From: an uncultured Lachnospiraceae bacterium
Lineage (GTDB): Bacteria > Bacillota > Clostridia > Lachnospirales > Lachnospiraceae
DNA length: 46,897 nucleotides
Direction: 5' to 3'
Assembly: GCA_946407725.1 (NCBI GenBank)
Contig: CAMJPM010000012.1
Coordinates: 1-46,897, forward strand
The notes below the pieces were generated by a model that saw only the letters and a program-made list of their open reading frames with translations, was not told the DNA's origin and did not search any database. A program made the translations under genes and the position numbers. Positions 25,647-46,744 of the stretch are shown here, one piece after another. The stretch's first letter is position 1, and each line of letters begins with the position of its first letter.

Positions 25647-26297
25647 ATGAAGAGTTATGTAAACCGAAAGTCGTTGTTTTATATTAAATATATCAAGCGT
25701 CCCATGGATGCGTTTCTTGCATTCTTCGCCATTTTGTTTCTGTCACCGGTTCTCATTACGGTGGCGGCTCTTGTGAGGGTGAAGCTTGGAAGTCCCGTGA
25801 TATTCCACCAGGACAGGCCCGGAAAGGACGGAAAGATCTTCGGCCTTATGAAGTTTCGGAGCATGACTGATGAGAGGGACGAAAAGGGAGAGCTCTTAAG
25901 TGATGAAAAGCGCCTGACACCCTTCGGAAAGCGCCTCCGCTCCCTGTCTTTAGACGAATTGCCGGAGTTTTTTAATATACTGAAAGGGGATATGTCCTTT
26001 GTGGGACCCAGACCCCTGCTGGTCCGCTATCTTAAAAGGTATAATAAGGAGCAGCTCCACAGGCATGATGTACTGCCGGGGCTTACGGGGCTTGCCCAGG
26101 TCAACGGGAGAAATGCCATTACCTGGGAGAAAAAGTTTGAGTATGATCTTGAATATGTGAGAAATGTGTCTCTGATGCTGGATATAAAGATATTGTTTAT
26201 GACGGTTTTTAAGGTGTTTAAGAGGGAAGGCATTAGCTCGGAGACTAATGCCACCATGGAGGAATTCTGGGGTAATGAAGAAAAGAAGCAGGAGTGA
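25647..26297 (+). CDS. Initiating sugar-phosphate transferase (WcaJ/PglC family)
   Basis: 216 residues, the short form of the bacterial sugar transferase family. One membrane segment (about residues 20-45, [21 protein letters not shown]) is followed by the catalytic core with [49 protein letters not shown] and FVGPRPLL. Such enzymes transfer a sugar-1-phosphate to undecaprenyl phosphate on the inner membrane face, starting repeat-unit assembly. The first residues MKSYVNRK are encoded by a GAGTTATGTAAAC element (25652-25664), and the ribosome site is weak, so the true N-terminus is less certain. Confidence 0.9.
25652..25664 (+). repeat. Dispersed GAGTTATGTAAAC element at a gene start
   Basis: Identical over 13 bp to the units repeated at 34322, 34358 and 34430. 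On the other strand it reads GTTTACATAACTC. It encodes part of the N-terminus of the sugar transferase. Confidence 0.7.
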
Positions 26298-29011: not shown

Positions 29012-30328
29012 ATGAATGTATTGTGTCTATTTCAGAAATTTGATTTTTCCTCATCCACCATCTACCTGGATCTGGTGCAATGCCTTGAAGAAAGGGGCCA
29101 CAGGGTGATGATAGCCGCCTGTTCCTCTAAAGAAAAGGTGTACAGACTTGAGAAGAGGGGAAGCATAAGCTGCGGCTATATACCTGTTCCGGACCAGTTC
29201 CGTGCCGGAAAAATCCGGAAGGGTTTAATCCAGCTCATGCTGGGGAGGAAGATATATAAAGGTGTAAAGAAGTTCTTCTGGGATAAAAAGGTTGACATAA
29301 TTATTTATCCTACACCTCCCGTAACCTTTTCAAATATCCTGAAACCCCTTAAAAATCATTATCATGCCGTAAATTACCTTATGCTGAAGGACATCTTTCC
29401 CCAGAACGCGGTGGATCTTAAAATGATGAGGGAGGGGAGTGTCCTCCACAGGCTGTTTAAGAGGATGGAAAGGGAGCTCTACAGGAATTCCGATAAAATT
29501 GGCTGCATGTCCTTAAAGAACATGGAGTACATTAAGGAGCATGAGGGCAGCTATCTCAAAAATAAGCCGGAGCTGTTTCCGAATACCGTAAAGATTCTGG
29601 AAGATCCGGAGGATCCCGGGAATCCCGGGTATCCGGGGAAACCTGAAGCACCGGGGAAACCTGAAGCTTCGGTGAAACCTGAAGCTTCGGGGAAACCTGA
29701 AGCTCCGGGGAATCCTGAAGCTCCAGGGAATCCTGAAGCTCCGGGAGAAGATGAGAAGAATCCGGGTCCCGTAAGCTTTATCTTCGGAGGAAACCTGGGA
29801 AAACCCCAGGCCGTGGATTTTCTGACAAAGGCCATAGAAGGGCTTAAGGATTTTAAGGACGCTGAATTTACCTTTATAGGATCCGGCACCGAGGAAAAGA
29901 AGATAAAGGACTTTATCCGGGATAAAAACCCCGGGAATCTGAAGCTTATAAAGGAGCTTCCCCGGAGGGAATATGAGGAGCTTTTAAGAAAGTCGGATGT
30001 GGGGATAGTTTCCCTCAGTCCCGATTTTACCATACCCAATTACCCGTCAAGGATCTTATCCTACATGCAGATGGCAAAGCCGGTGCTCTCTGTCACCGAT
30101 AAGAATACTGATATAAGGGAGCTTGTGACCAGGGAGGCAAATTGCGGCTACTGGTGTTATTCCGGAGACATTGAGGGCTTTAAGGAGACCGTTAAAAAGA
30201 TAGTATCAGAGAGGGAGGGCTTAAGGGCTCTTGGCAGAAACGGACGGAAATATTTAACAGAGAATTTTAATGTGGAAAGATCCGTGGATATACTTGAAAA
30301 GGCAGTAAATGTCCTGAAAAAACAGTGA
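29012..30328 (+). CDS. GT-B (GT4-type) glycosyltransferase with a Pro-Gly-rich hinge repeat
   Basis: 438 residues. The N-terminal acceptor domain (about 1-200) begins MNVLCLFQKFDFSSSTIYLD; the C-terminal donor domain (about 255-438) has VSFIFGGNLGKPQ, FTFIGSGTEE, SDVGIVSLSPDFTIPNYPSR and the closing helix region AKPVLSV. The WbuB-like family adds a sugar to the lipid-linked intermediate in the cytoplasm. Between the domains lies an inserted stretch (about residues 200-250) of P-G-K-P-E-A-like hexapeptides, six clean copies with degenerate flanks. Such an insert is unusual for this family and may be a flexible linker or a variable element. Specificity is not predictable. Confidence 0.85.
   Translation: MNVLCLFQKFDFSSSTIYLDLVQCLEERGHRVMIAACSSKEKVYRLEKRGSISCGYIPVPDQFRAGKIRKGLIQLMLGRKIYKGVKKFFWDKKVDIIIYPTPPVTFSNILKPLKNHYHAVNYLMLKDIFPQNAVDLKMMREGSVLHRLFKRMERELYRNSDKIGCMSLKNMEYIKEHEGSYLKNKPELFPNTVKILEDPEDPGNPGYPGKPEAPGKPEASVKPEASGKPEAPGNPEAPGNPEAPGEDEKNPGPVSFIFGGNLGKPQAVDFLTKAIEGLKDFKDAEFTFIGSGTEEKKIKDFIRDKNPGNLKLIKELPRREYEELLRKSDVGIVSLSPDFTIPNYPSRILSYMQMAKPVLSVTDKNTDIRELVTREANCGYWCYSGDIEGFKETVKKIVSEREGLRALGRNGRKYLTENFNVERSVDILEKAVNVLKKQ
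29633..29740 (+). repeat. 18-bp in-frame minisatellite (PGKPEA units)
   Basis: Six consecutive 18-bp units (29633, 29651, 29669, 29687, 29705, 29723) of the form CCGGGGAAACCTGAAGCT with a few substitutions, flanked by degenerate copies on both sides. They encode P/S-G/V-K/N-P-E-A. Confidence 0.92.
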
Positions 30329-32582: not shown

Positions 32583-33710
32583 TTGAGTAAACTACGACTC
32601 ATGACGGTGCTTGGAACCAGGCCCGAGATTATCAGGCTTTCTGCGGTCATTAAATGCGCGGACAGGTATTTTGACCATATCCTGGTCCATACGGGTCAAA
32701 ATTACGATTACAGTTTAAACGAGGTTTTCTTTAAGGACTTGAAGCTCCGGGCTCCGGACCACTATCTCTCCAGCGCCGGTAAGAATCTGGGGGAGACCAT
32801 GGGGAATATCATCGCAGCCTCCTATTCACTGATGGAAAAGGAGCGGCCCGACGCGGTACTGATCCTGGGGGACACCAATTCCGCCTTAAGCGCCATAAGC
32901 GCCAAGAGGCTGAAGATCCCCATCTTCCATATGGAAGCCGGAAACCGCTGCTGGGACTGGAATGTGTCTGAAATGATAAACCGGAAGATCGTGGACCATA
33001 TTTCAGATATTAACATGCCCTATACAGAGCACTCCAGAAGGTATCTCCTGAGTGAAGGCATAGACGGCAAGACGATCTTTGTCACCGGTTCTCCCATGAA
33101 GGAGGTTTTCAATACCTTTAAGGAGGATATCGAAGCCTCGGACGTGCTGGAAAGAATGGGACTAAAGAAGGGGGAGTTCTTCCTGGTATCTGCCCACAGG
33201 GAAGAAAATATCGACCTTGAGGACAATTTCTTCTCCCTTATGAATGCCATAAATGCCATAGCCGAAAAGTACGGGATGCCGGTGATATATTCCACCCACC
33301 CCCGGAGCCGCAAATTCATTGAAAAGAGGAATTTCAAGTTCCATCCCCTGGTGCGCAATCCTGAGCCCTTCGGCTATTTCGATTACAATAAGCTGCAAAA
33401 ATCCGCATACTGTGTGCTGTCAGACAGCGGCACGCTTTCAGAGGAATCCGCCATGCTGGGGTTCCCCGGGGTTCTTATACGCACCTCCACCGAAAGACCC
33501 GAGGTGTTGGACAAGGGAACCATTGTAATAGGCGGAATAAAGGAAGAGGATGTGAAACAGGCCGTGGAGCTGGCTGTCTCCATGTATGAAAACGGCGAAG
33601 AGACTGTGGAGGCAGGGGATTACGCGGACAGCAACGTTTCCGTCAAGGTGATAAAGCTCATACAGAGCTATACAAAGATAGTGAATGAGACAGTATGGCT
33701 GAAGCATTGA
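32583..33710 (+). CDS. capG: UDP-sugar 2-epimerase, CapG/FnlC-like
   Basis: 375 residues from TTG 32583, which has AAAGGAG at 32566-32572; an earlier frame from 32556 has no ribosome site and would include the repeat spacer. The enzyme shows LMTVLGTRPEIIRLSAVI, HTGQNYDYSLN, HMEAGNRCWD, SAHREENID and SDSGTLSEE, all typical of non-hydrolysing UDP-GlcNAc 2-epimerases. With capE and capF it should finish UDP-N-acetyl-L-fucosamine. It overlaps the next glycosyltransferase by 16 bp. WecB is the close relative, but the capEF context favours CapG. Confidence 0.92.
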   Translation: MSKLRLMTVLGTRPEIIRLSAVIKCADRYFDHILVHTGQNYDYSLNEVFFKDLKLRAPDHYLSSAGKNLGETMGNIIAASYSLMEKERPDAVLILGDTNSALSAISAKRLKIPIFHMEAGNRCWDWNVSEMINRKIVDHISDINMPYTEHSRRYLLSEGIDGKTIFVTGSPMKEVFNTFKEDIEASDVLERMGLKKGEFFLVSAHREENIDLEDNFFSLMNAINAIAEKYGMPVIYSTHPRSRKFIEKRNFKFHPLVRNPEPFGYFDYNKLQKSAYCVLSDSGTLSEESAMLGFPGVLIRTSTERPEVLDKGTIVIGGIKEEDVKQAVELAVSMYENGEETVEAGDYADSNVSVKVIKLIQSYTKIVNETVWLKH

Positions 33711-34879
33711 ATTATCCCGTTGAGATTCATAAGCTGCTGCCCGGACTTGATAAAAAAGGGCCCTTAAGGATAGTGGTGCTGGATACAGCGGCGTCCAAAA
33801 CCGGGGCTCTTTCCGTTCTGCGGGATTATTATGATCTAGTATGCAGCCTGAAGGACGGTAATGAGTGGTTTTTTATCACCGGAGTAAAGGGGATACTTAA
33901 GGAAAAGCCTGATTCTCCGGATATCCACGTAATCTTGAAAGAAGATGTAAAACAGTCGAGGCTTAAAAGACTTCTTTTTGATCATTTTACCGGAAAAGAT
34001 TATTTATGTAAACTAAATCCGGATGTGATCATATCCATGCAGAATACACTGCCCCGGGGAGCGGAAAGGCTCTCGGGGACAGTGATCTATCTCCATCAGC
34101 CCCTGGGATTTCAGAATATAAAAAAATTTTCATTCTTCAATAAATGGGAGCGTCCCCTTGCGGTCTACCAGTATCTCATCGCGCCGGAAATAGACAGATC
34201 CTTAAAAAGAGCGGACAGGATCATAGTGCAGACGCAGTGGATGAAGGACGCGGTGGTAAAAAAAGACGGGATCTCCCCGGAAAAGATCGTGATAATGCCG
34301 CCGGAGGTTCCGGAGATTGTAGAGTTATGTAAACATGTGGAAATGGCCGGAACGAATGAGTTATGTAAACTCCGTGGCGTGGGCGGCGCCGATGAGTTAT
34401 GTAAATCAGGCGATGCACGGGACTTTGGCGAGTTATGTAAACACAAAGAGACGCGGCAGTTCATATACCCGGCGGGACCCATTCTCTATAAGGATCACCA
34501 GTGTATAGTGAACGCCCTGAAGATCCTATGTGACAGGGGGATCCGTGATATGAAGGTCATCTTTACCGAAAGAAAAGAAAACCTTCCCTGGGTGGAGGTG
34601 CCGGAGTGCTGCAGGGATCTTATTGAATGGAGGGGGATGATCAAAAGGGAGGAGCTCCTGAAGCTCTACAGAACCTCGGTAATGCTCTTTCCGTCATATA
34701 TAGAGACCTTCGGCCTTCCCCTGGCAGAAGCCTGTAAAGCCGGAATTCCGGTGATAGCTGCCGATACCCCCTTTGCGAGAGAGATCCTCTCGGGGTATGA
34801 CAAAGCTTCATTTTTCAAGGCATCTGATTCAAAAGCCCTGGCGGATCTAATGGAAGTCAATGGGGACGGTTCTCATTGA
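33695..34879 (+). CDS. GT-B glycosyltransferase with a four-unit ELCK repeat and altered C-terminus
   Basis: 394 residues. The N-terminal domain has LKRADRIIVQTQWMKDAVV and IVIMPPEVPEI; the C-terminal donor domain has FIYPAGPILYKDHQ, VMLFPSYIETFGLPLAEACK and ADTPFAREIL, so a GT4-type rhamnosyl/FucNAc-transferase-like enzyme is likely. The hinge (about residues 210-248) carries four 12-residue units each beginning ELCK. The C-terminus runs into a GGGGACGGTTC-type repeat: the last residues EVNGDGSH and the stop are encoded by it, so the end of the protein was probably replaced when the repeat and toxin-antitoxin pair inserted. Only a short terminal helix would be lost, so activity may remain. 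Confidence 0.82.
   Translation: MAEALNYPVEIHKLLPGLDKKGPLRIVVLDTAASKTGALSVLRDYYDLVCSLKDGNEWFFITGVKGILKEKPDSPDIHVILKEDVKQSRLKRLLFDHFTGKDYLCKLNPDVIISMQNTLPRGAERLSGTVIYLHQPLGFQNIKKFSFFNKWERPLAVYQYLIAPEIDRSLKRADRIIVQTQWMKDAVVKKDGISPEKIVIMPPEVPEIVELCKHVEMAGTNELCKLRGVGGADELCKSGDARDFGELCKHKETRQFIYPAGPILYKDHQCIVNALKILCDRGIRDMKVIFTERKENLPWVEVPECCRDLIEWRGMIKREELLKLYRTSVMLFPSYIETFGLPLAEACKAGIPVIAADTPFAREILSGYDKASFFKASDSKALADLMEVNGDGSH
34322..34442 (+). repeat. Four-copy 36-bp-period array of GAGTTATGTAAAC in a CDS
   Basis: Copies start at 34322, 34358, 34394 and 34430, exactly 36 bp apart. Each is GAGTTATGTAAA with C (T in copy 3) at the end, and the 23-bp spacers are unlike each other. All are in frame and encode ELCK. 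Confidence 0.93.
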
Positions 34880-34883
34880 CTCC
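34852..34883 (+). repeat. GGGGACGGTTC-type dispersed repeat, left of the toxin-antitoxin pair
   Basis: Bases read GGAAGTCAATGGGGACGG then TTCTCATTGACTCC, itself partly palindromic (GTCAAT/ATTGAC). It is related in inverted orientation to 35553-35584 and to both arms at 36302-36371. It contains the stop codon of the glycosyltransferase. From memory, similar repeats are associated with IS200-like REP transposases in many bacteria; none is encoded here. Confidence 0.8.
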
Positions 34884-34963: not shown

Positions 34964-34993
34964 GATGATATGATCATGAAAGGAAGTGGTGAT

Positions 34994-35257
34994 ATGGCAC
35001 AGGTTGTTAATGTAAATTTCAAGTTGGATTCGGACGTAAAAAAAAGCATGGAACAGGCGTGTGCTGATATGGGTTTATCCATGAGCGCAGCATTTACAAT
35101 CTTTGCAAAAAAGGTTGGCCGTGAGCGTCGCATACCTTTTGAAGTGTCCGCTGATCCTTTTTATTCAGAAAGCAATATGCGTTATCTTGAAGGCATTGCC
35201 AGGGATATCAGAGAAGGGAAAGCACATTTTGCCGAGCATGATCTTATTGAGGATTGA
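34994..35257 (+). CDS. RelB/DinJ-family antitoxin
   Basis: 87 residues from ATG 34994 with an AGGAAG ribosome site; an ATG at 34970 in frame would add eight residues and place the ribosome site inside the gene. The N-terminal ribbon-helix-helix pattern is NVNFKLDSDVKKSMEQACAD, MGLSMSAAFTIFAKKV, as in DinJ/RelB, followed by the toxin-binding C-terminal tail. It should repress its own promoter and neutralise the toxin encoded 2 bp after its stop. Its antitoxin class differs from YefM, the usual partner of YoeB. Confidence 0.9.
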   Translation: MAQVVNVNFKLDSDVKKSMEQACADMGLSMSAAFTIFAKKVGRERRIPFEVSADPFYSESNMRYLEGIARDIREGKAHFAEHDLIED

Positions 35258-35259
35258 AT

Positions 35260-35520
35260 ATGAAGATACTATGGGAAGATCGTGCCTGGGATGACTATCT
35301 TTACTGGCAGACACAGGATAAAAAAGCCCTTAAGAGGATAAATGCGCTTATTAAAGATATTAAGCGTAGTCCATTTGAGGGCATTGGTAAGCCTGAACCG
35401 TTGAAAGACAATCTAAGTGGCATGTGGAGTCGTCGGATTGATGAAGAAAACCGTATTGTATATTACGAAGAAGGGAACATATTATTTATAGTTTCCTGTC
35501 GTGGCCATTATGATAATTGA
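35260..35520 (+). CDS. yoeB: YoeB-family ribosome-dependent mRNA interferase toxin
   Basis: 86 residues from ATG 35260 (GAGGA at 35249-35253). It matches YoeB closely in pattern: DRAWDDYLYWQ, KRINALIKDIKRSPFEGIG, KPEPLKDNLSGMWSRRI, DEENRIVYY and the C-terminal CRGHYDN. The catalytic Glu (FEG), Arg (SRRI) and C-terminal His-Tyr are present. It cleaves mRNA at the ribosomal A site. The pair is an insertion between two polysaccharide genes and is bracketed by inverted repeats. Confidence 0.92.
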   Translation: MKILWEDRAWDDYLYWQTQDKKALKRINALIKDIKRSPFEGIGKPEPLKDNLSGMWSRRIDEENRIVYYEEGNILFIVSCRGHYDN

Positions 35521-35525
35521 CCGCG

Positions 35526-35584
35526 ACCGTCCCCCTGTCTCTCCCCTGTCTCGGAAGTCAACGAGAACCGTCCCCACTGACTCC
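35526..35584 (+). repeat. GGGGACGGTTC-type repeats to the right of the toxin-antitoxin pair
   Basis: ACCGTCCCCCTGTCTC (35526-35541) is followed by a 32-bp element GGAAGTCAACGAGAACCG then TCCCCACTGACTCC (35553-35584). The latter is the opposite orientation to 34852-34883. CCCCCTGTCTC also occurs just after the left repeat (34882-34892). Confidence 0.8.
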
Positions 35585-35648: not shown

Positions 35649-37061
35649 GTGAAAATCGGGAAATTTAAATTTAATAACATCCATTGCTGGTACTATCCTG
35701 TGGTGCTGGGCATATATTTTCTTGCCATGTTTTTTCCGGATGTGGTGAGACCGGGGGTGGCGTCTGCGGTCTTTGTAATATTGGTGGCGGCAGAGACGGT
35801 ATTTGCAGCGATAAACGGCCGCGGGAACCTGGGTTTACATAACTCAGAAAGTGCCCATAAAACAGCATTCATTCGTGGGTCAGCTAGTTTACATAATATC
35901 GCAGACAACTACCCGCCCGAGGATATCATGGCATTTGTCTGGATCGCCTATAACCTGCTCTCCGGGATATGGTGTCTGTCTTTCGGAGCGCCCCTTTCGG
36001 TCTTTCTGGGGGAGCTCTTCACCACTGCCCTTCCCATGTGCTTTTATTTCTGTGGCAGGAGAGAAACGTATCCTGACCGGTTTTCAAAGCTGTTCCTGAT
36101 CTCGGTGGCATTTACCGGGCTTGTGGGCATCGTTCTCTTTATCACCGGACCAAAATTCTATATAGACTATCTAATGAGGCTGGAGCTTATTTCCAAAGCG
36201 GATGTGCAGACCATGAGGGTCCGCATGCATTCTGTGATCGGCAGCACTCTTATGGGATATCTCCCCTCAGTGGGGATGCTGTTGTCCGTAAGGCGTTTTA
36301 GGGAGTCAATGGGGACGGTTCTCGTTGACTTCCAAGAATTGGAGTCAACGAGAACCGTCCCCGTTGACTCCATTTGCTCCTTCTTCTTTATGCTTTTTCT
36401 CGCATTTATGAGTAACCAGCGCTCCGCCATGGCAGCGGCTATCTTTATCATAATCTATCTGAACTGCCTTGTTTTCCTGGTATTTGAAAAAGCGGACAAA
36501 AAATATCTTGCGCTGGAAGGTGTTCTCGCAGTGATCTTTACAGCGGGATTTTTCATGGTATTCAGAGGGGCCTTTATGAAGGTATATTACCGGCTGGTAT
36601 CCCTTCCGGGGTCCATAGCCCAGAGATCGGACCAGTGGGTGGGGGCCGCGAATAACATGAAGAGCATCTGGCTCGGGAATGGCCTGGGAGCCAACGGCCA
36701 CAGAGCCATCGGATATACGGAGCATCTCATTGCAGACGGAGGGCTGGCAAAGCTCTATGTGGAGAGCGGGATAGTAGGGACCTCCATCTTTATCTTTCTA
36801 ATGATCCTGCTCCTGAAAAAAGGATTTGCCAATATAAAAAAATGTGCCCCGGAAACCGGTGTGATCCTTATTACCCTGATAATGTCCATCGGCTCAAATA
36901 TGATGAGCTTTGCGCTGTCGGTGCCGGTATTCTATTACTGCATGGGACGTATCTCCGGGATCGTAAATGAGAAAGAACGTATCTCCGGGATCGTAAACGA
37001 AAAGGGACGTATCTCCGGGATCGTAAACGAAAAGGAAGAGAGGGCAGGAGAGGGAAAATGA
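35649..37061 (+). CDS. Wzy-like polysaccharide polymerase / O-antigen ligase family membrane protein
   Basis: 470 residues with about ten or more hydrophobic segments and a large loop ending NMKSIWLGNGLGANGHRAIG, typical of Wzy/WaaL proteins. It likely polymerises lipid-linked repeat units at the outer face of the membrane. The GTG start has AAAGGA upstream. The gene is unusually rich in foreign-looking in-frame inserts: a segment with two GLHN/SLHN elements (about residues 60-86), a large inverted repeat (about residues 218-241), and three RISGIVNEK units at the C-terminus (residues 434-463). All are in loops or at the end, so function may survive. Confidence 0.82.
   Translation: MKIGKFKFNNIHCWYYPVVLGIYFLAMFFPDVVRPGVASAVFVILVAAETVFAAINGRGNLGLHNSESAHKTAFIRGSASLHNIADNYPPEDIMAFVWIAYNLLSGIWCLSFGAPLSVFLGELFTTALPMCFYFCGRRETYPDRFSKLFLISVAFTGLVGIVLFITGPKFYIDYLMRLELISKADVQTMRVRMHSVIGSTLMGYLPSVGMLLSVRRFRESMGTVLVDFQELESTRTVPVDSICSFFFMLFLAFMSNQRSAMAAAIFIIIYLNCLVFLVFEKADKKYLALEGVLAVIFTAGFFMVFRGAFMKVYYRLVSLPGSIAQRSDQWVGAANNMKSIWLGNGLGANGHRAIGYTEHLIADGGLAKLYVESGIVGTSIFIFLMILLLKKGFANIKKCAPETGVILITLIMSIGSNMMSFALSVPVFYYCMGRISGIVNEKERISGIVNEKGRISGIVNEKEERAGEGK
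35833..35899 (+). repeat. Two GTTTACATAA elements inside wzy
   Basis: GTTTACATAACTC (35833-35845) and GTTTACATAATAT (35887-35899), 54 bp apart, with a degenerate GTGCCCATAAAAC between them at 35851. They encode LHN in a loop between predicted membrane segments. Confidence 0.7.
36302..36371 (+). repeat. 70-bp inverted repeat in frame inside wzy
   Basis: The left arm (36302-36333) and right arm (36341-36371) are reverse complements over about 30 bp with one substitution and one extra base, around a 7-nt loop. Both arms are GGGGACGGTTC-type repeats. The reading frame passes through it, encoding MGTVLVDF and STRTVPVDS. Confidence 0.93.
36948..37037 (+). repeat. 30-bp tandem repeat at the wzy C-terminus
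   Basis: Three consecutive 30-bp units (36948, 36978, 37008), each beginning CGTATCTCCGGGATCGTAAA and encoding RISGIVNEKE/G. Differences between units are few. Confidence 0.93.
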
Positions 37062-38149
37062 AGATACTTGCGCTATATCTTCCCCAGTACCACTCCTTTC
37101 CGGAGAACGATGAATGGTGGGGAAAAGACTATACGGAGTGGACCGCCTTAAAGGGCGCAGCTCCGGTATTTAAGGGGCAGTCTATCCTGCATCCAAAAGA
37201 CGGATATTATGACCTGGTAAATGACCAGCCGGAGACCTTTATCCGCCAGGCAGGGGAGGCGAGGAAATACGGAATAGACGGCTTTGCGGTATACAGATAT
37301 TATTTCACCGGAAAGCAGCTGATGGAAAAACCCATGGAGATACTCCTAAACCACCCTGAGATAGATATGCCCTACTGCTTTGCCTGGGCCAATGAGACAT
37401 GGACCAGAGCCTGGTACGACCTGAAGGAAGAGGTGCTGATGCCCCAGGAATACGGAGGGGAACAGGAGTGGAGAGCCCATTTTGAATGTGAGCTCCCCTA
37501 TTTTAAGGACAAAAGATATATAAAAAAGGACAATAAACCGGTTTACATAATATACAGAACCTTTGATATCGACTGTCTTCCGGAAATGAAGGCAAAATGG
37601 GACGAATGGGCAAGAAAAGAGGGATTTGACGGTATTTTCTGGATTGGCGGAAGGACTGCGGGTAATGAGGATACGCGGAAAAACCTGATGGACGCATATT
37701 ACTATTTTGAACCAGGCTACACATTAAAGCACGGCCTGTCCCCCTTACGGACATTCCTTTACAATTCCGGTACTCTTTTAAGACATTTATATAATGCTCT
37801 CCCCATGAACAGGGAGCCGGAAAAAAAGATACTGGAGCGGCGGATCCCCATAGACTGGATATATGAGGGGATAGTTTCGAGACAATATGAAAGAAACGAA
37901 TATCCCGGCCTGATAGCACAGTGGGACAATACCCCCAGGCGCTCCTATAAAGGGCTGGTATATACGCAAGCTTCCGCGGAAAAATTCAGGACAGCGTTAA
38001 ACAGCCTAAAAAAAACGCTTAAGGATAAGGAGAGCTATGTCTTCATAAATGCCTGGAATGAATGGGGAGAGGGAGCCGCTCTGGAGCCCTCCTTAGAAAA
38101 GGGAGATGCTCTTCTAAAGGCAATAAGAGAGGTCAGAGAGAATGACTGA
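37058..38149 (+). CDS. WbsX-like / GH99-like family protein
   Basis: 363 residues. It begins ILALYLPQYHSFPENDEWWG and has YTEWTALKGAAPVFKGQ, PYCFAWANETWTRAWY and FINAWNEWGEGAALEPS, the pattern of glycoside-hydrolase-99-like WbsX proteins common in O-antigen and capsule clusters. Its exact role is unsettled: a glycosyl transfer or a trimming reaction on the polysaccharide is proposed for the family. It overlaps wzy by 4 bp (ATGA) and the next GT2 gene by 8 bp. One phrase (KPVYIIY) is encoded by a GTTTACATAA sequence at 37541-37550. Confidence 0.88.
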   Translation: MKILALYLPQYHSFPENDEWWGKDYTEWTALKGAAPVFKGQSILHPKDGYYDLVNDQPETFIRQAGEARKYGIDGFAVYRYYFTGKQLMEKPMEILLNHPEIDMPYCFAWANETWTRAWYDLKEEVLMPQEYGGEQEWRAHFECELPYFKDKRYIKKDNKPVYIIYRTFDIDCLPEMKAKWDEWARKEGFDGIFWIGGRTAGNEDTRKNLMDAYYYFEPGYTLKHGLSPLRTFLYNSGTLLRHLYNALPMNREPEKKILERRIPIDWIYEGIVSRQYERNEYPGLIAQWDNTPRRSYKGLVYTQASAEKFRTALNSLKKTLKDKESYVFINAWNEWGEGAALEPSLEKGDALLKAIREVREND

Positions 38150-39227: not shown

Positions 39228-41420
39228 ATGAAGAGAAATAGATTCACGGCAGCACTTCTTATACTGTTTTCCGTAATCCTTATACTGCTGTCCGTAAAGT
39301 CACTGTTAAACAGAAGAAAGGCCTCGGGTCTTAAGATAAATGAGATCTGCACCTCCAATTTCTCCGTGTCATACGACAGCCTGGGCGAGTACAGGGACTA
39401 TATTGAGCTAATAAATATGGGAGACGAGGACATAGACCTTTCGGGCTATAAGATAGGTGTAGCGGATGAAAAGGGCGGCGGATCATGGGAAATACCGGAG
39501 GGGACAGTAAAGCCCGGGGAATACAGGCTCATATTTGCGTCAAAGGATTACGGGAGCGAAGAGGAGGAATACGATCCGGACCGGTCTTTAAACTTAAGGG
39601 AATATCTTTACAGCGGCAGCTTTTTTGAGAAGGAGAAAGCAGATGAGCTGCATCTGCCCATGGGTCTTTCAAAGGAGGGCTGCAGCCTGGTGCTGATAAG
39701 CCCCGCCGGGGACAATACCGATAAGGTGGAGGTGCCATATCTGGACCGGGATATGACTTTTTCCAGATATCCGGATAGTAAAGGGGATTTCCGGATAAGG
39801 AGCGGAACTCCCGGTAAAGGAAACGATACTTCTGTGGAAATGAGGCCGAGGACCTTAAGGAAACCGGAGTTTTCCGTGGAGAGCGGATTTTATGATAAGC
39901 CCTTTTATCTGAACCTGAAAGGTTCAGCGGGACAGAAGATATATTATACACTTGACGGCAGCGATCCCGATGAAAACAGTATTTTATACACTTCTCCCAT
40001 AGAGATAACAGAAGCATCAGACAGGGAAAACCTGTATTCCGCTATAGCGGACGTATCAAACCTGCTGCCCAAAGGAAACAGGAGATATCCCTTTGCCCTT
40101 CCGGAAAAAAGGGTGGATAAGGCTACTGTGGTGAGGGCAGCCGTGGTGGATGAAAAGGGGAACCTGGGGGAGATCGGGACAGAGACCTATTTTGTTGGTA
40201 TTCAGGAGGAAAAATACAAAGATACGGCGGTGATATCCCTGGCTTCGGACCCGGAAGGGCTGTTCGGATCCGAAAAAGGCATATATGTCCTCGGGGATGC
40301 GGGACATGAATATTTAAAGGAGCACCCGGAGGTCAAATACTGGGGAATAGCGAATTACCGCTTTCAGGGCAGAGAGTGGGAAAGAGAAGCGGATATGGCT
40401 GTTTTCGGGGAAGACCACGCTCTCATGATGAATGTGAAAACCGGGATAAGGATAAAGGGCAACTGGAGCAGATGCTTTCCCCAGAAATCCTTAAACCTGT
40501 ATTCCCGGAAAATATACTCCGGTGCCGACAGCTTTCCGGTAAGCCTTCTTCCCGGGGACAGCAGGGAAAAAAGCGTGTCGCTCTTTTCCGGCGGTAATGA
40601 TGTGGATTACAAGATACTGGACAGGCTGGGGGCTCTCCTTGCGGAGCCTCTTAATATCAGCGTAATCCGTTACCGGCCGGCCCATCTCTTCCTTAACGGG
40701 GAGTACTGGGGTATAGAATACATTTCCGACAGATTTAATGAAGACTATATCCATGACAGATACGGGGTTCCAAGGGAAAATACGGCGGTCATAAAAGATA
40801 ATCTTCCGGTGGGCGGAAACCCTGAGGCCTCAAAGCTCTATGAGGAGCTAAGGTACATGGCATACAGCGGACTTTCTGACAAGGACTCCTATGAGAGGTT
40901 TAAGGAGGCCGTGGATATTGACAGCATGACGGACTACTATGCCTTTGAGATCTATATCGGGGCGCAGAATGACTGGCCCACCAGAAATTTTGCACTGTGG
41001 CGCAGTATTAAGGCCGGAGACACGGAAAAAGAGGACTGCCGCTGGCGCTACATGCTATTTGACCTTAATCACAAGACCATGGATTTGGAGCAGATGGATA
41101 TAGATAATCTGGAAAAGGCACTGGAGGATGACGCAGTATTTGCGGCAGCCTTTGAAAACCCGGATTTCCGGCAGGAGTTTTTTAAGAAGCTTGACAAAAT
41201 GGAGGAGATTTATTGCTCCTATACAAAAGTAAATGAGAAGATAAGTAAGCTGGAGGAGTCCTCCGCTTCCCACATGGCAATGTGGTATGAAAGGTTTTAT
41301 AATGGAGCTGTGGGAGAAGAGGGTTACCATAAAAAGATATCTGCCATAAGGGAATATTTCAAGAGACGTCCCGGGGCGGTAAAAAAGCTGAAAGAGAAGT
41401 ACAATGGCACTCAGCAGTGA
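39228..41420 (+). CDS. CotH-family protein with lamin-tail and chitobiase-like domains
   Basis: 730 residues. A signal anchor (about residues 7-24, FTAALLILFSVILILLSV) predicts export. Next comes a lamin-tail domain (about 35-110; KINEICTSNF, YIELINMGDEDIDLSGYKI), then a chitobiase/HYR-like segment (IYYTLDGSDPDE), then CotH (about 380-640; GIRIKGNWSRCFPQKSLNLY, HLFLNGEYWGIEYISDRFNE, DWPTRNFALWRS, LFDLNHKTMD). CotH proteins of spores are atypical protein kinases; surface CotH proteins are common in gut Firmicutes. Its place between glycosyltransferases suggests a role in export or anchoring of the polymer. It overlaps the next gene by 17 bp. Confidence 0.88.
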   Translation: MKRNRFTAALLILFSVILILLSVKSLLNRRKASGLKINEICTSNFSVSYDSLGEYRDYIELINMGDEDIDLSGYKIGVADEKGGGSWEIPEGTVKPGEYRLIFASKDYGSEEEEYDPDRSLNLREYLYSGSFFEKEKADELHLPMGLSKEGCSLVLISPAGDNTDKVEVPYLDRDMTFSRYPDSKGDFRIRSGTPGKGNDTSVEMRPRTLRKPEFSVESGFYDKPFYLNLKGSAGQKIYYTLDGSDPDENSILYTSPIEITEASDRENLYSAIADVSNLLPKGNRRYPFALPEKRVDKATVVRAAVVDEKGNLGEIGTETYFVGIQEEKYKDTAVISLASDPEGLFGSEKGIYVLGDAGHEYLKEHPEVKYWGIANYRFQGREWEREADMAVFGEDHALMMNVKTGIRIKGNWSRCFPQKSLNLYSRKIYSGADSFPVSLLPGDSREKSVSLFSGGNDVDYKILDRLGALLAEPLNISVIRYRPAHLFLNGEYWGIEYISDRFNEDYIHDRYGVPRENTAVIKDNLPVGGNPEASKLYEELRYMAYSGLSDKDSYERFKEAVDIDSMTDYYAFEIYIGAQNDWPTRNFALWRSIKAGDTEKEDCRWRYMLFDLNHKTMDLEQMDIDNLEKALEDDAVFAAAFENPDFRQEFFKKLDKMEEIYCSYTKVNEKISKLEESSASHMAMWYERFYNGAVGEEGYHKKISAIREYFKRRPGAVKKLKEKYNGTQQ

Positions 41421-43116
41421 AATATTTAAGAATAAAAGAATACTTTTTATATGCAGGGAGACCTACGGTAAGCCCCTGTGGTTTCTGGCGCGGGATCTAA
41501 TGGAGGACAATGAGGTGGCAGCCTTTTATATCATGTCCTCCGAAAGCCGTTTCAACAAATGCTATTATAACGAGCACACCATCTTTGAGTTCAGGGAGCA
41601 TCTCCCGGAATGCAAACTCTATGATGTGAGCGATATCTGCGATGAATTCGTGGAGGGCATGGAAGCCTTCAGAAAAAAAGCGGGGATCGCTCCGGACGGC
41701 TACAGGTCCCACACACTTTTCGGCAGGGGAAAGGGCTTAAAGGACAGGCCGGTGAATAAGGGTGTCAAAGGCCCCGCTGACCCGGATTTTCTCGATATGA
41801 TCGAAAAAGAGTACAGCCACTTTAAGACTCCGGGGATGCAGCTCATGAGCTCCCAGGAAAACACCAGGCACTATCACTACCGGGATTACTGGGCCATAAC
41901 CAGCGACGAGGAAAACACCTACTGGCTGGAATTAAATTACAAAAAGATCTTCCGGGTGCTGGATGACTTTAAGCCGGATGTGATCCTGGATATGGATAAT
42001 GCGGAGCTGCAGCGCACAATACTCTGCGAGGTGGCATGGAAGAGAAAGATCCCCTATATGACCATAGAGTACGGGAAATACGGGTACTGGAAATATCCTT
42101 CTTTCCAGAATGCTTTTGATATCGATCCCTATTTTGAGAGGATCTACAGGGAGAAGCTCTCCCTGAATGATGAGGAGATGCCGGAATCCATAGCCTATAT
42201 AAAGGAATTCCGGGAAAAAAATGACATCATGAATCCGGAATTCGCAGGCTCCGTTACTGTGCAGTATGAGAGGGACAGCCTTATCTGGATCCTACGGGTC
42301 ATGCGGGGAAAGTGGAACTACTTCTTCGATCAGGACTACAGGGCGAAAAACCTTCCGGTGAAAAAAAGGAGCACCATGCTCTATGCCAGAACCTGGCCCT
42401 ATCTAAAGCATTATTATGACGCCATGATGAGAAAGAGGAAATTCCTGGTGCCAAACAGTCTCTTTGAAGATCCGGTGGAGGGTGAAACCTATGTCTATAT
42501 GCCACTGCATCTTATCCCGGAGTCCTCGGTATTTGTCAAGGCTTCATTCTATGTGGATGAATTAAATCTCATAGAGCAGGTGAGTAAGGCCCTGCCCCCG
42601 GGATGGAAGCTCTACGTAAAGGAGCATCAGTCCATGCTGGGAGAGAGGGATCCGGAGTTTTACAAAAAGGCCGGGGAGATCGCCAATGTGCGTGTGGTAC
42701 AGGTCAATTACTATAAAGACCCCAAGCCCTGGATACTCAAAGCCAAAGGGGTGGTCACCATCACCGGCACCGCAGCCTATGAGGCCGCACTTCTGGGAAA
42801 ACGCTCTATAGTCTTCGGGAAAACCCCCTACTCACTTATTGAGGGCATAAAGGTCATCACCTCCTTTGATGAGCTGGAGCGTGAGATCAGGAATTTCGGC
42901 AGCGTTGACAGCCTTCACTCCGCTGCAGCCTATCTGGAGGCCGTGAAGGAAGCGGGCACAGAGGTAAAGATCTTTGAACTGATGGACGGCGCGGAGGAGA
43001 TCTTCTCAGGGCGCAGGAAAGAGGATCAGGCATTTCGTGACATGCTCCGGGAGCTTCTTAAGTTTTATGAAAAGGGATATGAGAGGTGGATCAAAGGGAA
43101 AGTGCGGGAGCTATGA
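41404..43116 (+). CDS. Capsule polysaccharide biosynthesis (Capsule_synth-like) glycosyltransferase
   Basis: 570 residues. The C-terminal half has YVYMPLHLIPESSV, WKLYVKEHQSMLGERD, AKGVVTITGTAAYEAALLGK and FGKTPYSLIEGI, the GT-B pattern of Capsule_synth (KpsC/KpsS-like) proteins. The N-terminal half is a less conserved helix-rich domain with CRETYGKPLWFLARDLM. KpsC/KpsS-type enzymes add Kdo to a lipid acceptor, but other members transfer other sugars, and no Kdo pathway gene is seen here. The stop is followed by the 22-bp-period array before neuB. Confidence 0.82.
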   Translation: MALSSEIFKNKRILFICRETYGKPLWFLARDLMEDNEVAAFYIMSSESRFNKCYYNEHTIFEFREHLPECKLYDVSDICDEFVEGMEAFRKKAGIAPDGYRSHTLFGRGKGLKDRPVNKGVKGPADPDFLDMIEKEYSHFKTPGMQLMSSQENTRHYHYRDYWAITSDEENTYWLELNYKKIFRVLDDFKPDVILDMDNAELQRTILCEVAWKRKIPYMTIEYGKYGYWKYPSFQNAFDIDPYFERIYREKLSLNDEEMPESIAYIKEFREKNDIMNPEFAGSVTVQYERDSLIWILRVMRGKWNYFFDQDYRAKNLPVKKRSTMLYARTWPYLKHYYDAMMRKRKFLVPNSLFEDPVEGETYVYMPLHLIPESSVFVKASFYVDELNLIEQVSKALPPGWKLYVKEHQSMLGERDPEFYKKAGEIANVRVVQVNYYKDPKPWILKAKGVVTITGTAAYEAALLGKRSIVFGKTPYSLIEGIKVITSFDELEREIRNFGSVDSLHSAAAYLEAVKEAGTEVKIFELMDGAEEIFSGRRKEDQAFRDMLRELLKFYEKGYERWIKGKVREL

Positions 43117-43129
43117 AAGCTGTCAATTG

Positions 43130-43341
43130 GGTTTACATAAAACAAAGTATTGCGATTTACATAAAATTTGAGTATGGTTTACATAAACCGTAGAAGTGGT
43201 TTACATAAACTGACGATAAGGCTTGTATTAAAAAATATTGTGGTTTACAATAATCGTGAATGTGGTTTACATAAATCAGATATATGGTTTACATAAACCG
43301 GAGGATGGGTTTACATAAATTGAAGATGAGGTTTGCATAAA
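43130..43341 (+). repeat. Ten-copy, 22-bp-period array of GGTTTACATAAA upstream of neuB
   Basis: Copies start at 43130, 43154, 43176, 43198, 43220 (degenerate), 43242, 43264, 43286, 43308 and 43330. After the first interval of 24 every step is exactly 22 bp. The 12-bp core is conserved in six copies and nearly so in three, while the 10-bp spacers share no sequence. A 22-bp step is about two helical turns and is not a multiple of three, so the array is not organised as coding sequence. It ends 6 bp before the AGGAGG ribosome site of neuB. Confidence 0.95.
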
Positions 43342-43357
43342 ATCAGAAGGAGGCAGT

Positions 43358-44431
43358 ATGGGAAAGAGCGTTATTAAGGAAAGACTTGCGGAAAATAAAT
43401 TTACCCTTGTGGGGGAGATCGGCGTCAACTATTACGATATTGCCGCCAAAATGGGAACAACCCCACTGGAAGCCGCCTGTCTCATGATCGACAAGGCGGC
43501 ACAGGCGGGGATCCACGCCGTGAAATTCCAGAGCTATAAAGCGGGGACACTGGCCAGCAAGGACAGTCCGGCATACTGGGACAGGAGCGAAGAGCCAACG
43601 GGGAGCCAGTATGAGCTCTTTCAGAAATTCGATGCCTTCGGGGAAAAGGAGTACCGGGAGCTTTACGAACACGCGGAAAAGTGCGGGATAGAATTCCTGT
43701 CCACGGCCTTTGATACGGAATCCGCCGATTATCTGAATGACATGATGAATGTGTATAAGATATCCTCCTCCGATCTGTCCAATCTGCCCTTTATCGAATA
43801 CCAGGCAAAGAAGGGAAAGCCCATTCTCCTCTCTGTGGGAGCCTCGAATGAGGATGAGATAAGGAAAGCCATAGATACCATAAGGCAGCATAACAGCGAA
43901 AAGATCACATTGCTCCACTGCGTGCTGGAATATCCCACTCCCCTTGATCACGCAAATCTACTCAAGATCGCATCCTTAAAGGAGAAGTTCCCGGACTGCT
44001 ATACCGGGTACTCGGATCACACCAAGCCCACGCCGAATTTCGACGTAATAAAGACGGCCTACAATCTCGGCGCCGTACTGGTTGAAAAGCACTTTACCCT
44101 GGATAAGAAGCTCAAAGGAAATGATCACTATCACGCCATGGATCCCTTTGATGCCATGAAGATCATCTCGGGTATAAATGACATAATCAAAATCCGGGGA
44201 AAAGGGGAGCTCGTGAGCCTTTCCACTGAAAGCGCTGCGAGGCAGAACGCCAGAAGATCCCTGGTGGCCGCAGTGGATATACATGAGGGAACAGTTATCA
44301 CAGAGGATATGCTCACCTGGAAGAGGCCGGGACTTGGCATATCACCCTCGGAAATCCATACGGTTATAGGAAAGACCGCCATCACCCAGATTGCCCAGGA
44401 TACAGTGCTTAAAAGGGATATGCTTGCATGA
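43358..44431 (+). CDS. neuB: NeuB-family sialic-acid-type synthase
   Basis: 357 residues. TIM-barrel domain (about 10-280): FTLVGEIGVNYYDI, AVKFQSYKAGTLA, GIEFLSTAFDTESADYL, YKISSSDLSNLPFI, KPILLSVGASNEDEI and YTGYSDHTKPTPNFD. C-terminal SAF (antifreeze-like) domain: ARRSLVAAVDIHEGTVIT and KRPGLGISPSEIHTVIGKT. The enzyme condenses phosphoenolpyruvate with an N-acetyl-hexosamine to make a nonulosonic acid (sialic, legionaminic or pseudaminic). No NeuC or CMP-transferase (NeuA) is encoded in the window. AGGAGG at 43347-43352 lies 5 bp before the ATG. The upstream spacer is filled with the 22-bp array, which is placed to regulate it. Confidence 0.93.
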   Translation: MGKSVIKERLAENKFTLVGEIGVNYYDIAAKMGTTPLEAACLMIDKAAQAGIHAVKFQSYKAGTLASKDSPAYWDRSEEPTGSQYELFQKFDAFGEKEYRELYEHAEKCGIEFLSTAFDTESADYLNDMMNVYKISSSDLSNLPFIEYQAKKGKPILLSVGASNEDEIRKAIDTIRQHNSEKITLLHCVLEYPTPLDHANLLKIASLKEKFPDCYTGYSDHTKPTPNFDVIKTAYNLGAVLVEKHFTLDKKLKGNDHYHAMDPFDAMKIISGINDIIKIRGKGELVSLSTESAARQNARRSLVAAVDIHEGTVITEDMLTWKRPGLGISPSEIHTVIGKTAITQIAQDTVLKRDMLA

Positions 44432-45876
44432 GTGAGAAAGCCCAGGAGAACAGGAGCGTAGAGACCGGGGACGGACAGAAGGCTGTCCGCTCCGGCTTCT
44501 GGTATGTGATTTCAAATGTGCTCATAAGGGCGGTGGGGATAATCACCGCCCCCATATATACCAGGCTCTTAAATACGGCAGAAACCGGATATGCCAATAA
44601 TTTCAATAATTATGTCAGCATTTTTTCCGTGATAAGCGGCCTCTGTCTTATATACAGCGTGGGACGGGCAAAGCTGGATTTTAAGGAGGATTTTGACGCC
44701 TTTATGTCCTCCATACAGACATTGTCCAGCGGTTTTTCCCTAATAGTGCTTATTCTTGTAATGGTGCTTTTCCCGGAAGGCGGCACTTTTCTGCAGTTTC
44801 CCCGGATCGTGGTCTTCCTGCTCTTTATGTATCTGACGGTTTTTCCCTCTATTGACTATATGCAGTACAAATACCGCTTTGAGTATAAATACAGGGAAAA
44901 TATCGCCATTTCCGTGATCCTTACGGTGACGACGGTTATTCTCACCATTCTGTTATTGCTCTTTATACCGGCGGAAAAAGGTTTCTTAAAGATCCTGGGA
45001 ACAGTGATACCGGGAATGGCTGTGGCAGTCTGGTGTTATGTAAACCTCGCGGCAAAGGGAAGAACCTTTTACAATAAGGAATACTGGCTCTATGCCTTAA
45101 AGATCGGACTTCCCATGATACCCCACGGGCTGGCCCTTATCCTGCTCTCCAGGATAGATGTGTCAATGATATCGGAGATCCACGGTTTTTCCGCTGTGGG
45201 GCTCTATACCTCCGGATATACCATAGGCACCCTTTTAATGTTTGTGACAAATGCGGTGGGACAGGCATGGCTTCCCTGGTTTAATGAGCATCTCTACGAC
45301 AACGATATCGAAGGGATCATGGACAAAAACAGGATAATGATGGCTTGCGGCTGCGTGCTGACCCTCATATTCATAGGGGCAGCGCCTCTGGCGGTAAAGA
45401 TCCTGTTTGCCAGAAGCTACTGGGATTCCATGTGGGTGGTGCCTCCGGTGGCTCTTGGCACCCTTTGCCAGTATTTCTACACAAACTACGTGAATGCGGA
45501 GCTGTTCCACAAGAAAACTTTTCTTATCGCCCTTAATTCCTGTATCGCCGCAGCGGTGAACATCGGACTCAACGCATATTTTATTCCGAAATTCGGCTAT
45601 ATCTCTGCAGCCTATACCACCCTTGCAGGTTATTTTATCCTGATGGTGCTGCACTATATGGCAGTAAGGTTCATATTGAAACTAAGACTCTATCACGACG
45701 GACAGTATTTCCTCATGCTAATGGCCGCCATAGCCTGCGGGATCCTCACGGCGTTCCTCTATCCCCATCCGGTTATCAGATATGCCCTTCTAATCCTCCT
45801 TGCGTTCGTCTCGGTCTTCTTTGGAAGAGAGTACATCCGGCTCATAATTTCCAGAATCCTGAGGGCTAAGTCTTAA
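44428..45876 (+). CDS. Wzx-type oligosaccharide flippase (MATE/MOP superfamily)
   Basis: 482 residues with about 12-14 hydrophobic helices. N-terminal RSGFWYVISNVLIRAVGIIT with APIYTRLLNTAETGYANNFN is typical of Wzx proteins. It should flip the lipid-linked repeat unit across the membrane for the Wzy polymerase at 35649. It overlaps neuB by 4 bp (ATGA). A TTATGTAAAC sequence (45036-45045) encodes CYVN in a predicted membrane helix. It ends the polysaccharide operon visible here. Confidence 0.92.
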   Translation: MSEKAQENRSVETGDGQKAVRSGFWYVISNVLIRAVGIITAPIYTRLLNTAETGYANNFNNYVSIFSVISGLCLIYSVGRAKLDFKEDFDAFMSSIQTLSSGFSLIVLILVMVLFPEGGTFLQFPRIVVFLLFMYLTVFPSIDYMQYKYRFEYKYRENIAISVILTVTTVILTILLLLFIPAEKGFLKILGTVIPGMAVAVWCYVNLAAKGRTFYNKEYWLYALKIGLPMIPHGLALILLSRIDVSMISEIHGFSAVGLYTSGYTIGTLLMFVTNAVGQAWLPWFNEHLYDNDIEGIMDKNRIMMACGCVLTLIFIGAAPLAVKILFARSYWDSMWVVPPVALGTLCQYFYTNYVNAELFHKKTFLIALNSCIAAAVNIGLNAYFIPKFGYISAAYTTLAGYFILMVLHYMAVRFILKLRLYHDGQYFLMLMAAIACGILTAFLYPHPVIRYALLILLAFVSVFFGREYIRLIISRILRAKS

Positions 45877-46186
45877 GATTTGCATTTTTTTCCGATTTTG
45901 AGTAAAATAATATATGTATTAGTGCGCTTATCTCCACTGAAGCGTTTCAATCAGCGATGAAGGGCGGGTAATCAGGCGTGCCCGGAACAAGACCATGATC
46001 GATACTCCTGCTCGTTGGGAAATCTGCGGCGGGTGAGACATGTGACAATGCAGGATACAGAGCGGTGCCGGATCTTCAAAAAAGACCTCCGGGATCGTAG
46101 GGGGAAGTCTGACTGTTTTCAGAGGTTCATGGGGGCTGAACATAATGTGTGAGGAATGGAAAAAGAACTGAAAAAGGAAGGTGAAT
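45877..46186 (+). other. 310-bp spacer before the Uma2 gene
   Basis: Besides the promoter-like sequence at its left end, I see no gene with ribosome site and start, no tRNA and no strong hairpin. Base composition differs from neighbouring operons (mixed, less Lachnospiraceae-like codon texture), so remnants of older genes or repeats are possible. Confidence 0.5.
45880..45908 (+). promoter_or_regulatory. Promoter-like sequence after the flippase gene
   Basis: TTGCAT (45880-45885), 17-bp spacer and TAAAAT (45903-45908). The same two hexamers occur before the toxin-antitoxin genes. A T-run (45885-45891) lies just after the -35, but no stem precedes it, so a terminator is not supported. Confidence 0.4.
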
Positions 46187-46744
46187 ATGGAATTTAAGAA
46201 AGCAGTTGAATATACTGTGGACGATATTATGAATCTTCCTGAGGGAAAAAGGGCTGAGCTTATTGACGGGGTATGGTATGACATGGCCACACCGCTCCGG
46301 GAACATCAGGAGATTGTCAGTGTAGTGAGCACCGAATTATCTAATTATATCCGGAAAAAAGGCGGTAACTGCAGGGTATATCCTGCGCCTTTTGCCGTAT
46401 TCCTGAATAAGGATAACCGGAATTATATCGAGCCTGATGTAACTGTTGTCTGTGATCCGGATAAGCTTGATAAATATGGCTGTAACGGGGCGCCGGATCT
46501 GGTGGTGGAGGTGGTTTCGCCTTCTACTAAAGACAGGGATTACGCCATAAAGCTCTTTAAGTACCGTGATGCAGGGGTTAAAGAATACTGGATCATCAAT
46601 CCTGAAAGAAGGACGATCAATACATATTCATTTTCCGATGAAGCAGAGGAAAGAGTGGAAAAGGCAGACCAGATATCCTTTGATGAAGAACTGACCTCAT
46701 CGTTATATCCCGGCTTTTCCATGGTACTTTCCGAACTGCTGTAG
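46187..46744 (+). CDS. Uma2 family (DUF820) PD-(D/E)XK-like protein
   Basis: 185 residues from ATG 46187, with GGAAGG 5 bp upstream; a GTG at 46181 is in frame but overlaps that site. The family pattern is complete: LPEGKRAELIDGVWYDM, HQEIVSVVSTELSNYI, YIEPDVTVVCD and PDLVVEVVSPSTKDRDYAIK, with YRDAGVKEYWIINPE. The Asp in EPDV and Glu in VEVVSPST form the nuclease-like active site. Uma2 proteins are abundant in cyanobacteria and many Firmicutes; their function is unresolved. It lies outside the polysaccharide operon after a 310-bp spacer. Confidence 0.9.
   Translation: MEFKKAVEYTVDDIMNLPEGKRAELIDGVWYDMATPLREHQEIVSVVSTELSNYIRKKGGNCRVYPAPFAVFLNKDNRNYIEPDVTVVCDPDKLDKYGCNGAPDLVVEVVSPSTKDRDYAIKLFKYRDAGVKEYWIINPERRTINTYSFSDEAEERVEKADQISFDEELTSSLYPGFSMVLSELL

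Follow-up and report, generated by a model that had tools for sequence, protein, structure and literature searches.

What does a regular array of short repeats do directly in front of a neuB-type synthase gene? In the window, by which we mean the whole 46,897-nucleotide stretch of DNA analyzed from an uncultured Lachnospiraceae bacterium, ten units with the core GTTTACATAA occupy positions 43130..43341 (+) in one orientation throughout, with starts at 43130, 43154, 43176, 43198, 43220, 43242, 43264, 43286, 43308 and 43330, giving one step of 24 bp followed by eight of 22 bp. The gap that holds them (43117-43357, 241 bp) lies between a 570-aa gene with no Pfam match (41404..43116, +) and neuB (43358..44431, +; NeuB and SAF domains), and the array ends at 43341, followed by AGAAGGAGG and then the neuB ATG at 43358. 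A sequence-only reading had described ten 12-bp units on a fixed step with unrelated spacers, placed in the only sizeable gap of the 35.6-45.9 kb gene run and ending at the neuB ribosome site, and had proposed an operator for neuB. Most of this layout was borne out: there are ten lattice positions on the fixed step, no other sizeable gap separates the ORFs of that run, the array stops just before AGAAGGAGG, and the nine spacers show little relation to one another (pairwise identity averaging 0.33 vs. 0.28 when shuffled, p = 0.02; cores 0.87). The ten positions held, but the copies are not all exact, with GGTTTACATAAA 12-mers in six of the ten units and one mismatch (43154 and 43330), two (43242) or four (43220, a relic) in the others. 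The combination of GTTTACATAA with TTTACATAA 5-30 bp further on occurs six times in the window and not once in 100 shuffles.

An array that fills the gap before neuB and stops at its ribosome site is what a multi-site operator dedicated to that gene might look like. We consider this explanation improbable, since copies of the motif are scattered across the genome and the genus, coding genes included, the neuB genes of two relatives (G003 and G024) have no array in front of them, and the gap is without a promoter-like site (0 vs. a shuffle mean of 1.9 in a search of sigma-70 type). The same gap in G003 measures 125 bp and consists of unrelated inverted-repeat sequence, while the neuB homologue of G024 overlaps the preceding ORF by 4 bp, so that the array could be gained or lost independently of the gene. 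Homologous loci without the array are what the sequence-only reading had itself named as contrary to its proposal, and for a neuB-specific role both relatives compared provide them. By eye, the gap in G003 (L265 5499-5623) contains an inverted repeat resembling GATTCTTCGC...GCGAAGAATC.

The core, GTT[T/G/A]ACATAA, is scattered through the genus, within genes too. Exact copies of GTTTACATAA number 15 in the window against 0.05 expected, and 45 in the whole genome, where the backward-read pattern has 6. Exact pairs with a gap of 8-30 bp were found in 24 of 48 genus genomes and in 0 of 48 for the control. Counts of the core relative to the reversed control were 59 to 7 in G003, 52 to 6 in G025, 57 to 5 in G046, 48 to 22 in G001 and 53 to 22 in G031, while G024 showed no overall excess (20 vs. 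22 for GTTTACATAA and 53 vs. 74 for GTTNACATAA). A scan of public genomes returned at least 119 stretches with arrays; among the 80 titled matches listed, 46 were from Lachnospiraceae, 12 from Oscillospiraceae or Ruminococcaceae and 14 from outside Clostridia. Triple exact arrays are rare family-wide, occurring in 3 of 297 genomes, the present one included.

Several further sites in the window lie within genes. The glycosyltransferase gene at 33695..34879 (+; Glycos_transf_1, GT4-type) carries a second array at 34325..34442 (-), with exact copies at 34325, 34361 and 34433 and a one-mismatch copy at 34397, all on a 36-bp step in the inter-domain linker, and this array is an in-frame insertion relative to G024. 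Two sites with a 54-bp step in a Wzy-like gene (35833..35896, +) are both found at the aligned place in G003, as is a single site in a flippase-type gene (45036..45045, -); single sites in a WbsX-type glycosyltransferase gene (37541..37550, +) and in the glycosyltransferase gene (34004..34013, -) are not common to G003. In addition, a bacterial sugar transferase gene has a single site at its start (25655..25664, -), and a variant site, GTTGACATAA, lies at 29291..29300 (+). Across the seven gene pairs compared, G003 keeps the aligned place for four of the eight window sites, in genes of 64-76% protein identity, which rules out a full turnover of coding-site positions; neither the window nor G003 has a site in the 570-aa gene, neuB or the GT2 gene. 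Relative to G024, the glycosyltransferase linker and the Wzy-like loop are both extended, indicating that some arrays came with inserted DNA.

The same region has other repeats and gene modules. A gene pair for a RelB-like antitoxin and a YoeB-like toxin (34970-35520; Pfam RelB and YoeB_toxin) lies between the glycosyltransferase and Wzy-like genes, and a dispersed repeat, GTCAACGAGAACCGTCCCC, is present in four copies with at most one mismatch where 0 are expected (34862-34880, 35557-35575, 36311-36362). Two of these copies face each other in the Wzy-like gene, at a protein insertion relative to G003 and G024, and one is at the end of the glycosyltransferase gene. Tandem repeats within long ORFs occur at 36944-37035 (30 bp x 3.1), 29632-29745 (18 bp x 6.3) and 1136-1704 (282 bp x 2.0), and a gene for a putative endonuclease of the Uma2 family is found at the window end (46181-46744).

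We assessed upkeep of the core in ten regions picked for site density, together 198 kb. These dense regions held 70 exact cores and 26 position-4 variants (11 with A, 14 with G and 1 with C), while the other 27 one-mismatch variants came to 14 copies in total (0-4 each), compared with 7 when read backwards. Decaying repeats would leave many one-mismatch copies, and since there are few except at position 4, the core sites look maintained. This bears on whether the array is a mobile-element remnant or a plain tandem repeat, such as the multiple end repeats of IS21-type elements or a minisatellite. That origin would fit the slight similarity left among the spacers and the arrays in the glycosyltransferase and Wzy-like genes, which are insertions relative to G024; we nonetheless judge it very improbable given the scarcity of one-mismatch copies, the helically phased spacing described below, and the content of L034, the best of four IstB matches in the genome, which has 0 core copies in 3,699 bases (its left end lies outside the piece).

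Spacing between neighboring sites was informative. Among 194 non-coding direct pairs 18-40 bp apart, distances peaked at 20-23 bp and again at 31-36 bp, dipped at 24-27 bp, and were phased with the helix (Rayleigh p = 4.6e-8 at 10.5 bp and 1.3e-10 at 11 bp), though these p-values are optimistic because pairs within one array are not independent. A period of 11 fits the non-coding spacings better than 10.5, and 13 of the 194 pairs have an 18-bp spacing, off the two-turn peak. Steps in coding sequence were multiples of 3 in 31 of 36 cases. Non-coding neighbors were direct in 237 cases and inverted in 10, an excess that is partly built in since most loci were chosen for holding a direct pair. Helical phasing, kept cores and free spacers together support the earlier suggestion that a protein is arrayed along one face of the DNA at intervals of about two turns.

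XerD, known as a dimer-resolving recombinase, is the candidate for this protein. Read on the other strand, the core becomes TTATGT[A/C/T]AAC, which is the XerD box of dif: the reversed core TTATGTAAAC matches the right arm of B. subtilis dif at 10 of 10 positions, so that the array core has the sequence of the XerD arm. In PMC3025954, the dif seeds terminate in TTATGTAAACT for B. subtilis, TTATGTTAAAT for E. coli and TTATGTCAAGT for F. alni; they have A, T and C, respectively, at position 7 of the box, the same position at which A, C or T is tolerated here. Further boxes of this kind appear in PMC2731167. XerD scored above its cut-off in all 12 genus genomes searched, the present one among them. 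The array departs from dif, the site of XerCD dimer resolution, in that its units are single half-sites arranged head to tail in many copies, all ten the same way round, without the opposed arm or the 6-bp center of a complete dif. No match to dif was found in the window with a clostridial consensus as the query, and a palindrome search in the whole genome stayed at the control level (5 vs. 5).

These comparisons lead us to favor, with moderate confidence, a reading in which a Xer tyrosine recombinase, most likely XerD, has its half-sites lined up in the array, which would be one member of a set dispersed in the genus and probably acts on chromosome structure. XerD would contact every unit from the same side of the double helix, and since half-sites that all point the same way, with neither opposed arm nor 6-bp center, cannot form a dif core, binding would take place without recombination.

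Related sites were also seen in viral contigs. An exact pair is present in 90 viral stretches, and contigs L453, L445 and L396 contain 25, 28 and 15 core sites in 12-15 kb, located between large ORFs in the stretches inspected and oriented both ways in L453 and L445 but mostly one way in L396. The mixed orientation in two of these three contigs is not explained by the XerD half-site model.

Linkage between sites and xer genes was found outside the genus. Among the matches listed, 6 of the 119 array loci contain a xerD-level gene (319-338 bits with the genus XerD profile), compared with about 0.3 loci expected, as estimated from one xerD per 3 Mb. The six loci belong to divergent Clostridia (L135, L122, L149, L173, L197 and L200), and each has a four-site block at the promoter of the xerD operon, spaced at approximately 34-13-34 bp (the fourth site in L173 with one mismatch), with one ORF between the block and the downstream xerD that is SpoIIM by Pfam in four of the six. 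The encoded proteins are divergent (end branches 0.29-0.62), and their best NCBIfam match is XerD at 301-313 bits, below the cut-off of 329.6. By eye, a -35-like TTGACA falls within the fourth site and is followed after 16-17 nt by a TATAAT-like box, as expected if Xer represses its own promoter; judged by this arrangement, the block is likely an autorepression switch of xerD. A role of the motif as a general promoter was rejected: a -10 box was no commoner at 16-18 nt than at a control distance in own-clade loci (4 vs. 6 of 100) or on the three viral contigs (1 vs. 3 of 68). Among the public-scan loci listed, the box was commoner at 16-18 nt than at the control distance (32 vs. 16 of 454).

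Arrays also have other xer genes nearby in L132, L139, L141, L191 and L199; in the first three a radA-like gene intervenes. The xer proteins of L141, L191 and L199 have XerC as their best NCBIfam match, below its cut-off. In L191 an opposed pair of cores with a 6-bp center (2941-2966) directly follows the xer stop codon, a position it shares with the difSL/xerS and difH/xerH modules described in PMC5357621, from which it differs in the XerC-like match of its protein and in being one locus only. Within the genus, 0 of 14 xer loci had a site within up to 1.5 kb, and the linkage to xer was thus observed solely in other Clostridia.

The location of the sites on the chromosome was examined in G024, a closed genome of the genus with oriC at approximately 3.319 Mb, as marked by DnaA boxes, parS and, by eye, dnaA, dnaN, recF, gyrB, soj and parB. 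The first expectation for a XerD box, clustering at the terminus, was rejected there: 44 of 51 chromosomal GTTNACATAA sites fell within 750 kb of oriC, or 36.7% of the chromosome (p = 3e-13), compared with 22 of 69 for the reversed control. The sequence pieces retrieved from G024 cover part of its terminus side. The distribution differed from uniform for the sites (KS p = 6e-14) and did not for the reversed control (p = 0.77), although the control was also denser within 50 kb of oriC (7 of 69, p = 0.001). In fourteen pieces within 150 kb of oriC we counted 26 sites; when the motif was permuted 200 times, the observed number was never attained in either distance bin. The G024 loci that match the window in gene order lie 605-663 kb away from oriC, on both sides of it. 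The clade to which the window belongs differs: in G003, 36 of 59 exact sites are concentrated in two stretches totaling approximately 118 kb and partly homologous to the window, and exact parS and the dense regions are on different contigs. Near the G024 skew switch at about 1.101 Mb there are two opposed pairs, both hairpin-like and with a 5-bp rather than a 6-bp center, one of them with a mismatch; the pair with one mismatch, at 1,100,820, is by its sequence possibly dif.

Centering on oriC rather than the terminus in G024 is a point in favor of another, undescribed DNA-binding protein, nucleoid-associated or centromere-like and acting in the origin region, with the likeness to the XerD box arising by chance. 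In G001, G004 and G031, arrays found between a dnaN-like gene and a yaaA/recF-like one (identified by eye) fit such a protein as well, as do the 14 xer loci of the genus that have no nearby site. Yet nine fixed positions together with the same tolerated position as in dif, and the linkage to the xerD operon in six divergent species, argue against chance, and we regard this alternative as unlikely. RacA ram sites are dispersed and origin-centered, and the G024 sites resemble both these and parS/ParB in that respect, but parS and ram differ from the core in sequence. Of the 11 genomes in which exact parS was matched, 10 had it on a single contig and G001 on two; the present assembly yielded none.

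If XerD is the protein that binds, its activity in B. subtilis offers a model for what the arrays might do. Karaboja et al. 2021 reportedly showed that SMC is unloaded at XerD-specific binding sites in B. subtilis, including sites outside dif. Unloading of SMC by XerD in B. subtilis is described in PMC12322038, PMC13342612, PMC8242196 and PMC9564211. The known unloading sites are located at the terminus. The sites studied here share with those a XerD box outside dif; unlike sites in the replication terminus, they are on the origin side in G024, the one closed genome, and they form tandem arrays and also occur inside genes; unloading here is putative. Bound arrays may act on chromosome structure in the same way as XerD in B. 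subtilis, with those on the chromosome arms serving as extra points at which SMC is off-loaded or paused. By analogy, we regard SMC unloading by the present arrays as possible rather than probable. If the array influences neuB at all, this would be incidental, with the array acting as a roadblock.

Among the titles and beginnings of abstracts listed from the open-licence literature, we found no description of arrays of this kind, and no open-licence paper joining XerD with spoIIM, or XerD with Lachnospiraceae and dif sites. The promoter blocks lead to the prediction that XerD represses its own operon in the six Clostridia, via the site containing the -35 box. A broader proposal, which we advance only tentatively and consider doubtful, is that Lachnospiraceae and other Clostridia use XerD beyond dif, through dozens of dispersed, phased, non-recombining half-site arrays away from the terminus and even in protein linkers, as a second chromosome-organizing code that sets the ends of SMC loops. 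If true, a recombinase would have turned into a chromosome-organizing protein in gut and rumen bacteria, with its sites kept even in coding sequence.
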